From a virus: 36,098 nt of DNA. Below are positions 11,435 to 14,836 of this stretch, in pieces (position 1 is the first letter of the stretch; every line of letters begins with the position of its first letter). The stretch lies in IMG/VR virus record IMGVR_UViG_3300034682_000193, positions 1-36,098 of that record. One strand, given 5' to 3'. The notes beneath the pieces were generated by a model. The model worked only from the letters and a program-made list of their open reading frames with translations. It was not told the origin of the DNA and made no database searches. The translations under genes and the position numbers were made by a program.

Positions 11435-13849
11435 ATGTCTGAGAACTATGGGGATGTGCTGCAGCAGCTACAGTCAGCCGGCCTGCTGGTCACCGAGCTG
11501 GACACCACCGGGCGCATGGTGCGCTGCCGCGTCGAAGGGTCGCGCGAGCGTCGCGGTTGGTACGCGCTCCACGAACTGAACACGCAGGCCGGAGAGGTCC
11601 TGGTCGTCGGCACGTACGGCGTCTGGCACGGCAACGAAAATGGCGCGACCAAGGTTGATCTGCGCAAGCGCGACAAGACCTTCTCCGAAGAACAACGCGA
11701 AGCGCTGCGCAACCGTCTGGCCGAGGATCGTCGCAGGGCGGAGTCCGCTCGCCTGTCTCAGGCGAAGCGGGCAGCAGAACGGGCATCGTCGGCCTGGGCC
11801 AAGGCCAATGCAGTTGGCGAGGCCGACTACCTGGTCAGCAAGGGCGTGCAGGGCTTCGGCCTGCGCTATGGCACCACGGGCGCCGCACTCGTTCCGCTGC
11901 TGGACGTGAACGGCCAGGTGCATGGCCTGCAGGTGCTGCGCAGCGCCAAGCTTGCCGCAGCAGGGCGCAAGCCAGCCAAGGAATATTGGCCAGCGGGCAT
12001 GGTCAAGAAAGGCCACTTCCACCTGATCGGCGGAACTCCTCAGTGGATCCTGCTGGTGGCCGAGGGCTATGCCACCGCCGCCACGTTGCACATGGCGACC
12101 GGCTACCCGGTGGCCGTGGCGTTCGACGCCGGCAACATGCTGGCCGTCGCCTCGGCCTTGGCGAAGCGCTATCGCGGCATCAGGATGCTCCTGTGCGCCG
12201 ATGACGACGTGCTGCAGAGGTGCCGGCACTGCAAGAGCCGCTTGGTGCTTGCCGACCATCCGCAATTCTGCCCATCGTGCGCGCAGCCACATGGCGCGTC
12301 GAATGCCGGCCTGCTCGGTGCCGAGGCCGCAGCGCTGGACGTGGGCGGAGCGGTGCTGCAACCCGTCTTTGTCGATGAGCCGGCCAGGCGTGAGCACTTC
12401 ATCGACAGCGGCCGAAAGGTCAGCGACTTCAACGATCTGCACGCCCGTGAGGGCCTGCATGTCGTGCGGGCGCAGGTCGAGGCCCGTCTCACGGAGCTTT
12501 CATGGCGAGTGCCTGCAGAAAAACGCGCGCCTTCCACCACCAGCGACGGGGGCGAGGGGAGTGACCGCTTGGCTCCCATCCATTCGCTGACCGAGCTGCT
12601 CGAGCGCTTCGCGCTGGTCTATGGGCAGGGCGGCACGGTGTTCGACCACAAAGAGCACATGTTGGTTGCCCTAGGCGACATGCGCGATGCCTGCGTGCGG
12701 AAAGAACTGCATCGAGCGTGGATGGAGCACTCGGATCGATCCATCGTGCGCGTGCGGGAAGTGGACTTCGACCCGTCATGCGAGAAGCCCGGGGTGACCT
12801 GCAATCTATTTGCCGGTTGGCCGACCGTGCCGCAGGAAGGCAACTGCGAGAGACTGTTGCAGCTGCTCTGGCACATGTGCGGAAACGAGGCCAACCAGAA
12901 GGCGCTGTATGACTGGGTGGTCAAGTGGCTTGCGTACCCGCTGCAACATCCAGGCGCCAAAATGAAATCGACCATCGTCATTCATGGTCCGCAGGGCACC
13001 GGCAAGAACATGTTCTTTGATGAGTACATGAAGCTCTACGGTGACTACGGTCGCGTGCTCGACCAGGCAGCGCTGGAAGACAAGTTCAATGACTGGGCAA
13101 GCCGCAAGCTGTTCCTGCTGGCCGATGAGGTGGTTGCACGCACCGAGGTGTACCACCTCAAGAACAAGCTCAAGGCGCTGATCACTGGCGACCGCATCCG
13201 CATCAACCCGAAGAACATCCAGGCCTACGAGGAGGACAACCACGCGAACCTGGTGTTCCTCTCCAACGAGGCGATGCCTGTCGTGCTGGAGGAGGATGAC
13301 CGGCGCCACGCAGTGATCTGGACGCCGGACAAGCTCAGTCAAGAGTTCTACACCGAGGTGCTGGCCGAAATCCGCAATGGCGCCACGGCTGCGCTGCACC
13401 ACTACTTGTTGCAGGTGGATCTGACCGGCTTCACCAATGGCACCAACCCGCCGATGACCCAGGCGAAAGAGGAGCTGATTGGCCTGAGCCAGGATAGCCC
13501 GCAGCGATTCCTGGACGAGCTGTACGGCGATGACATACCGGGGTTAAAGCCCATGCCAGCGCTGTCGAAAGAGTGGTACGAGGTCTACAAGGCCTGGTGC
13601 GCGCGTGAGGGCCTGCCGCGCCCGGCACCTTCGCCAAAGTTCATCAATGCGCTGGTGCGCAAGCGCCAGATCATCCACCCGGACAGAGCGCGGAAACGCT
13701 ACCAGATCGAGCAGAGCGTGAACGGGCCTCACGGCTTCCTGATGCTCGGCAACTGCACCGTGCCAGACGGCAGGACAGAGGCGGCATGGCTGGGTGACCA
13801 GGTCGTGTCGTTCCGTCGCATGTTCTCCGACTACAAGGGGCGCGCGTGA
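11435..13849 (+). CDS. Phage primase-helicase (TOPRIM plus SF3/DUF5906 helicase)
   Basis: 804 aa. It would synthesise primers and unwind DNA at the phage origin. Residues 1-130 form an N-terminal module with a charged helix. The TOPRIM domain spans about 150-315, with the Glu motif LLVAEGYATA (E210) and the acidic LLCADDD (D256-D258). A four-Cys zinc ribbon (C263, C266, C279, C282) is inserted directly after the acidic motif. Residues about 385-710 are the superfamily 3 helicase: Walker A GPQGTGKN (518-525), Walker B-like LFLLADEV (559-566) and sensor NLVFLSN (605-611), as in DUF5906/D5-like phage proteins. The C-terminal about 90 residues may bind DNA. Start chosen at the ATG after TGA. It is the only replication enzyme seen, so polymerase and loader are probably taken from the host. 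Confidence 0.92.
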   Translation: MSENYGDVLQQLQSAGLLVTELDTTGRMVRCRVEGSRERRGWYALHELNTQAGEVLVVGTYGVWHGNENGATKVDLRKRDKTFSEEQREALRNRLAEDRRRAESARLSQAKRAAERASSAWAKANAVGEADYLVSKGVQGFGLRYGTTGAALVPLLDVNGQVHGLQVLRSAKLAAAGRKPAKEYWPAGMVKKGHFHLIGGTPQWILLVAEGYATAATLHMATGYPVAVAFDAGNMLAVASALAKRYRGIRMLLCADDDVLQRCRHCKSRLVLADHPQFCPSCAQPHGASNAGLLGAEAAALDVGGAVLQPVFVDEPARREHFIDSGRKVSDFNDLHAREGLHVVRAQVEARLTELSWRVPAEKRAPSTTSDGGEGSDRLAPIHSLTELLERFALVYGQGGTVFDHKEHMLVALGDMRDACVRKELHRAWMEHSDRSIVRVREVDFDPSCEKPGVTCNLFAGWPTVPQEGNCERLLQLLWHMCGNEANQKALYDWVVKWLAYPLQHPGAKMKSTIVIHGPQGTGKNMFFDEYMKLYGDYGRVLDQAALEDKFNDWASRKLFLLADEVVARTEVYHLKNKLKALITGDRIRINPKNIQAYEEDNHANLVFLSNEAMPVVLEEDDRRHAVIWTPDKLSQEFYTEVLAEIRNGATAALHHYLLQVDLTGFTNGTNPPMTQAKEELIGLSQDSPQRFLDELYGDDIPGLKPMPALSKEWYEVYKAWCAREGLPRPAPSPKFINALVRKRQIIHPDRARKRYQIEQSVNGPHGFLMLGNCTVPDGRTEAAWLGDQVVSFRRMFSDYKGRA

Positions 13850-13865
13850 TCCCTATGCCCATCAA

Positions 13866-14128
13866 TGTGCGGTGTGTGCGGGATGTGCGGGCAGATGTGC
13901 GGGCACGGAATTGCTGTGAATCGCTTGCGGCAGTAGGCGCGTGCGGGACGTGTGGGCATCGGCCTACATGGGCGTGCGCGGGCGCGAACGGGTATCCAAC
14001 TGCCACATCAGGATGCGCCTCGCGTGCGTATGTAGGTGGCCGCACATCCCGCACACGCCGCACACGCCTTGTGCCACGGCAATCTGGCGCTCGTCGCGTC
14101 CCGCACACGCCGCCGCACAGCCCGCACA
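13866..14128. repeat. GTGCGGG/CCCGCAC multi-copy inverted-repeat element (origin or packaging-site candidate)
   Basis: The 342-bp gap between primase and terminase has no convincing gene. Left half: TGTGCGG(G) at 13866, 13875, 13884 and 13896, and CGTGCGGGA at 13940. Right half: the inverse (C)CCGCACA at 14040, 14048, 14058, 14100, 14113 and 14121. The middle adds a dyad, CGGCC..TACAT (about 13960-13969) facing ATGTA..GGCCG (about 14030-14042), so about 13936-14070 can fold into a long imperfect stem. An AT-richer stretch follows (14144-14175). Position suits an origin of replication or terminase-binding (cos/pac) site; which one cannot be read from sequence. Confidence 0.8.
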
Positions 14129-14191
14129 TGCTCGCGCGCGCGCAATTTTCCGTTTTAACGATCTTCGAAGGAAATGGAGTAGGGGGTACCA

Positions 14192-14836
14192 ATGGCTGAG
14201 GATGACGTGACGATCACTGGGAAGGAGCTGGCCTCCCTGATCGGCTGCAAGCCGTCCTACGTGGTCGAGCTCAGGAAGAAGGGAAGGGTGGTGGTGGGTG
14301 CTGGCGGGAAGGGATTCCTGAAGAGCGCCTCCCTGGAGCTCTACGCTCGCACCGCTGATCCGGTGTATGCCGGCGTAGCCCAGCGCCACGCAGATGAGCG
14401 TGGCAGCTCGCTGGTGGGGAGCCTGGAGGGTGCAAATGCCCTCGACGCCGACATCGACGACGATGAAGAGGACGGTGACGACGACGATGCCAGGCCATCG
14501 CGCCCCGGCCGCCCACAAACACCGGATTCCGCGCGCAAGGCCAAGGCGCTGGCTGACAAGGCCGAGACCGACGCGCACATGGCCCACATCGCGCTGCAGA
14601 AGGAGCTGGGGCTGCTGCTGCCCCGCGCAGACGTGGAGGCGTTCCTCGCTGAGCATGCAACGACGTTCCGGGGTGCGATGGAACGTCTGGCCGACACGCT
14701 CGCGCCACAGCTCGCGGCAACGCTGGATGAGGCCGGTTGCCGGCGCCTGGTCTGGGATGAGGTGAGCCATGCCTTGGAGGAACTGAGCCAGGGCTTCCGA
14801 ACGCTGGCGGCCAAGGCTGCGGAGGCTGCGGAATGA
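14192..14836 (+). CDS. Terminase small subunit (Nu1-like)
   Basis: 214 aa with ribosome-binding site AGGGGG 7 bases upstream. N-terminal winged helix-turn-helix (ITGKELASLIGCKPSYVVEL, about 8-28) as in lambda Nu1, for binding packaging sites. A strongly acidic linker with DDDEEDGDDDD (89-99) follows, then a helical domain (about 112-214) with KAETDAHMAHIALQKELGLL, typical of Nu1/DUF1441-type subunits that contact gpA. The acidic run is longer than in lambda. The dyad element directly upstream is its most likely DNA target. Stop overlaps the large-subunit start (ATGA). Confidence 0.85.
   Translation: MAEDDVTITGKELASLIGCKPSYVVELRKKGRVVVGAGGKGFLKSASLELYARTADPVYAGVAQRHADERGSSLVGSLEGANALDADIDDDEEDGDDDDARPSRPGRPQTPDSARKAKALADKAETDAHMAHIALQKELGLLLPRADVEAFLAEHATTFRGAMERLADTLAPQLAATLDEAGCRRLVWDEVSHALEELSQGFRTLAAKAAEAAE

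Follow-up and report, generated by a model that had tools for sequence, protein, structure and literature searches.

Facing repeat arrays between the primase and terminase genes very probably mark where a Stenotrophomonas phage starts copying its DNA

The DNA analysed here (the window) comprises 36,098 nt, positions 1 to 36,098 of the IMG/VR virus record IMGVR_UViG_3300034682_000193, and closely resembles Stenotrophomonas phage S1, with 87.5% identity across 1.5 kb. At its start a tRNA gene (49–121) lies near an integrase gene (1260–2414), and this region is likely to be the attachment site; an Rfam search of the window returned tRNA only. In the interior, a gene for a primase–SF3 helicase is followed by the gene for the small subunit of terminase (TerS), and the 342 nt interval between them holds six forward copies of a TGTGCGGG-type word (one is mutated) and, facing them, six inverted copies; most neighbouring copies have a 9-bp spacing. 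The copies, each with 0–2 mismatches to TGTGCGGG, fall into four arrays, which are listed by their starts with the neighbouring features in Table 1. The first word lies 17 nt past the primase stop. The copy at 13949, CGTGTGGG, is the mutated sixth forward word; aligned relatives carry C there, so that six words facing six is the usual arrangement. The centre between the two sets is approximately 80 bp in the window, and a length of approximately 95 bp is kept across several primase types. After array D there is an alternating CG tract (14131–14144), which is kept in S1-type relatives.

Table 1. Features of the primase–terminase region, in window coordinates.
Feature	Position	Strand	Basis or remark
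Primase–SF3 helicase gene (804 aa), proposed initiator reading the repeats	11435..13849	+	phrog_2249, E=1.3e-194
C-terminal domain of primase, proposed repeat-binding domain	13541..13846	+	Model; L106 substitutions
Open frame annotated gp2 in phage S1; by selection not protein-coding	13846..14199	+	pN/pS
Array A: four forward words (13866, 13875, 13884, 13896)	13866..13903	+	Conserved in relatives
Array B: two forward words at 9-bp spacing (13940, 13949; second mutated in window)	13940..13956	+	
Centre between facing arrays, GC-rich here	13957..14038	.	Other types: AT-enriched centre
Array C: three inverted words, 9-bp period (14039, 14048, 14057)	14039..14064	-	Conserved in distant relatives
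Array D: three inverted words (14100, 14112, 14121)	14100..14128	-	Forward orientation in PG1- and H4907-type loci
AT-rich stretch (GC 0.43) separating array D from terS; possible site of melting	14145..14191	.	
Terminase small subunit gene; neighbour, outside the element if this is an origin	14192..14836	+	phrog_57

A first-pass annotation, made from the sequence of the window, had described five copies of (T)GTGCGG(G) on the left and six inverted copies on the right over 263 bp, and had argued from their opposite orientation against a random GC bias. These claims hold. Exact GTGCGG occurs five times in the element and exact CCGCAC six times, 13866–14128 is exactly the distance from first to last copy, and complete segregation of the words by orientation has a chance of approximately 0.004. 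The 11 words in 342 nt compare with a mean of 0.88 and a maximum of 6 in 2000 dinucleotide shuffles, a control that the annotation had itself proposed, and the best 7-mer word has 10 copies vs a shuffle maximum of 7; elsewhere in the window there are at most four words in any 342-nt stretch. The extra central dyad that it had also reported exists (13963–13981 with 14018–14036), but is weak (74% complementary), and distant relatives do not share its sequence. The words themselves did survive the proposed comparison with relatives: within the close group, word columns are 99.4% conserved and other columns 88%, and the words persist in relatives whose TerS has fallen to 58% identity.

Viral contigs were scanned with the window primase first and with other primase types afterwards, and the stretch following each primase stop was assessed by an array score that is independent of the word itself (one word repeated in both orientations, with a score of 6 or more, within 380 nt after the stop). 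A two-orientation array was present directly after the primase stop in 177 of the 195 related-primase loci, which include many close relatives and are not mutually independent, and in none of 585 control windows from the same loci; the PG1-type primase by itself matched 469 stretches of viral contigs. Within the S1 type, the array is always directly 3' of the primase gene. Between primase types the word switches as a set, with the layout staying similar: it is GTGCGGG in the S1 type, GTGCAAGG in locus L106, GTGCAGC in L111, GTGCAGGGT in L118, L121, L122 and Moraxella phage Mcat3, TTACCCGA in L119, GTGAAGGGT in L124 and L128, TGTTGGGT in Pseudomonas phages PG1, Turba and SC_9, GTTAGGGT in L183, TCAGACAG in Halomonas phage H4907, and GGTCACCCC in Marinobacter phage PS3. 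The array keeps its place beside the primase even as the terminase changes in type and in distance. PG1-type loci combine one word type with at least four terminase types located 1.5–4.3 kb away, and the array therefore travels with the primase. This linkage across primase types, as judged by sequence comparison, is the firmest part of the case that we make below. The composition of the centre also differs between types; it has a GC content of 0.66 vs 0.63 for the loci in the S1 family, and is AT-enriched in the PG1, H4907, Moraxella and PS3 types.

The PHROG to which the window primase belongs is also matched by P4 alpha (2.9e-241) and by the rep protein of EcCICFT073 (1e-61), and the window protein additionally has DUF5906 and weak Toprim/VapE-like matches. 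A model of its last 102 residues (pLDDT 95) has the order helix–helix–strand–strand–helix, and the predicted fold resembles a winged helix. Two Foldseek runs with this domain gave no significant PDB fold match, 1KA8 (the P4 origin-binding domain) included, and a profile comparison with the P4 C-terminus and 1KA8 gave no significant match. The C-terminal domains of the S1, PG1 and Moraxella primases share homology. Across 22 diverse S1-type members, a changed word occurs in L106 alone. Of the 11 substitutions private to the L106 primase, seven are within the C-terminal 114 residues; for the remaining members the figure is six of 56 (Fisher p=4.5e-4). The model places these seven (P730A, P734H, H748S, A752S, Y756F, H766T and L771V, spanning residues 730–771) near the beginning of the second helix, ahead of the strands and within the strand hairpin, and the L106 TerS has no private substitutions. 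In these alignments, then, the word has changed together with the primase C-terminal domain in a single lineage.

The first-pass annotation knew of no described element with such a layout; related layouts are in fact present in P4 crr and in the origins of the PICIs (PMC6092414). In P4, crr is annotated as a cis-required region for replication. As in the window, it is situated directly 3' of the gene for an initiator of the same PHROG, alpha, and its repeats (type 1 iterons) have a 9-bp tandem spacing and form facing groups. It differs in the repeat word and its orientation, and in consisting of two 120-bp direct repeats, and P4 has an annotated origin separate from it. The PICI origins occupy the region 3' of rep, where two iteron sets flank an AT-rich stretch, and plasmid replication in E. 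coli was supported by EcCICFT073 rep–ori, the region 3' of rep together with rep (PMC6092414). An island in CFT073 at 1380000–1389000, which we take to be EcCICFT073 from its gene content, as the record does not state it, has two-orientation arrays directly after the primase gene, followed by a gene for single-stranded DNA-binding protein (SSB). The pri–rep–ori modules of the PICIs (SaPI, EcCICFT073) share with the window an origin-like region directly 3' of rep and two iteron sets around a central region (PMC6092414); the window differs in being a full phage genome with its own head genes and, like the rest of the S1 family, in having a centre that is not AT-rich.

A third comparison is with phage BIP-1, for which a stem-loop 3' of the replication protein gene was proposed as the origin (Berkner 2014; PMC4234260), and with the archaeal plasmid pRN1, which showed no specific binding at its stem-loop. 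In BPP-1-type phages and pRN1, as in the window, the putative origin is directly 3' of a primase–SF3 helicase gene; the difference is that it has been described as a stem-loop with unidentified binding motifs (PMC4234260). We found that BPP-1, which is near-identical to BIP-1, has two 9-bp words facing two inverted ones in the region 3' of its primase. The hypothetical BPP-1 gene bbp28 (L258:2810–3166), on the opposite strand, overlaps the primase 3' region beside this putative origin. The simplest account of all these arrays, those of P4, the PICIs, BPP-1 and the window, would be that they are iteron origins of primase–helicases. The window has a P4 alpha-family primase–SF3 initiator, iterons directly 3' of it, and two sets flanking a central region; because the S1-family centre is not AT-rich, we class the element as a probable variant that functions in the way of the P4/PICI replicon and not as a full member of that group.

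Four other explanations of the repeats have to be weighed. In phage S1 the interval is annotated as a gene, gp2, and the corresponding frame, which overlaps the primase stop, has no interruption in any of the 61 S1-type loci; the stretch, described as gene-free in the first-pass annotation, is thus not wholly without open reading frames. The pN/pS of the gp2 frame in S1-type loci is 0.78–1.01, no lower than that of the two other frames, vs 0.13 for the neighbouring primase control, and the frame has no Pfam match. A small protein gene was rejected on pN/pS, and we give it a negligible probability; the greater conservation of the words than of the spacers, together with the lack of protein selection, points to a DNA element, and this reading would correct the gp2 annotation. 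A frame through the element is also open in approximately 75 of 80 PG1-type loci (the S1- and PG1-type loci are L051–L217); shuffled spacers leave that frame open only 2–29% of the time, and there is no amino-acid conservation in S1- or PG1-type loci. Translation through the element may have been retained, perhaps because it keeps transcription from terminating ahead of terS. The first-pass annotation also listed a large RNA structure among its three candidates. In that case the late operon would carry a structured RNA or terminator whose inverted words pair in the transcript, and folding, which the annotation had suggested, does predict a structure more stable than shuffles (z=-4.07). Any facing inverted words would give such stability, however, and the last block is forward in PG1-, H4907- and some L121-type loci; in the PG1 and H4907 types the pairing is lost and the copies are kept. 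Furthermore, all copies change word together and not pair by pair, and no Rfam family matches the element. An RNA structure was rejected on the orientation changes and the concerted word change, and its chances appear slight.

The second of those candidates, a packaging site (cosB or pac) at which the repeats would be bound by the downstream TerS to start packaging, has three points in its favour: S1-type loci carry the element just ahead of terS (at a median of 342 nt), TerL is gpA-like, and lambda cosB likewise consists of repeated TerS sites (PMC4669245) upstream of the TerS gene. However, cosB has three R sites and an IHF site rather than six words facing six, and sites of this kind should be linked to TerS and change with it, whereas the word follows the primase type. 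PG1-, Moraxella- and H4907-type arrays are mostly 1.3–4.3 kb from terminases of several types, and in L122 terS is approximately 2 kb beyond the array. The retention of one word by the PG1-type primase in the company of such different terminases argues strongly against cos/pac, which we rejected on this linkage and on the L106 comparison, where the word has changed and TerS has no private change; we consider it very unlikely. Alternatively, the primase might bind the repeats as an accessory cis site, serving copy control, incompatibility or primase repression, with the true origin elsewhere, much as the annotated P4 origin is separate from crr. We regard this as improbable: there is no second word cluster in the window, and the same position is reported as a functional ori in PICIs (PMC6092414). 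The GC skew of S1 is close to monotonic and was uninformative here, and a search of plasmid records gave no match to the element.

The remaining candidate of the first-pass annotation, a phage origin, is strongly supported. We think it highly probable that the element is the replication origin, or a cis-required part of it, and that its iterons are bound by the primase–SF3 helicase encoded immediately upstream, most likely via the C-terminal domain. We favour this reading because the arrays adjoin the primase so regularly and are absent from the controls, because the word is kept across terminase types and changes as a set with primase type, and because the L106 word change is accompanied by changes in the primase C-terminal domain and by none in TerS. 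It is favoured also because P4 alpha, of the same PHROG, has its cis-required crr directly 3', because the EcCICFT073 region that replicates a plasmid together with rep (PMC6092414) holds comparable arrays, and because the words are far more conserved than the spacers with no protein selection. Counting against an origin are the GC-rich centre of the S1 family, the separate origin of P4, the failure to match 1KA8, and the restriction of the L106 case to one lineage.

From this evidence we infer that the C-terminal domain binds DNA, that helicase is loaded, perhaps as a pair of opposed rings, that the duplex melts and that replication proceeds in both directions. With both facing arrays bound, helicase would be loaded on either side of the centre; it would then open the DNA, and the same protein would prime synthesis. 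Melting may start outside the centre, for example in the AT-rich stretch before terS, or may rely on the helicase alone. More tentatively, and with somewhat less than an even chance of being right, we propose a widespread class of temperate-phage replicon whose facing 9-bp iteron arrays would load a single primase–SF3 helicase as two opposed rings, much as for SV40 T antigen. In such a class the word and the initiator C-terminal domain would switch together, so that one phage family would contain many origin specificities separate from one another. The origin reading would supply a large set of temperate phages with a specific origin. The switched words and their matching primase C-terminal domains would provide a natural experiment on how the domain reads DNA, and the sets of word and domain predict which phages and satellites could use one another's origins.

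The surroundings of the array vary. In L122 an extra gene, apparently for an ATPase (L122:2366–2950), is located between primase and array, and in L081 the TerS frame (from 7753) diverges past its N-terminal part, with the array intact. Between arrays A and B of the window (13916–13940) there is a short non-repeat box resembling CTGAAA-CC-NNGCC-RTTGGC, which recurs in several primase types, with matching places in L105, L109, L114, L115, L131 and L260; a similar string is present in the CFT073 island, and the box is a possible host-factor site. An SSB gene follows the array in L121, by our reading, and an annotated one does so in the CFT073 island (L260:4539–4949), an arrangement that fits a replication module.
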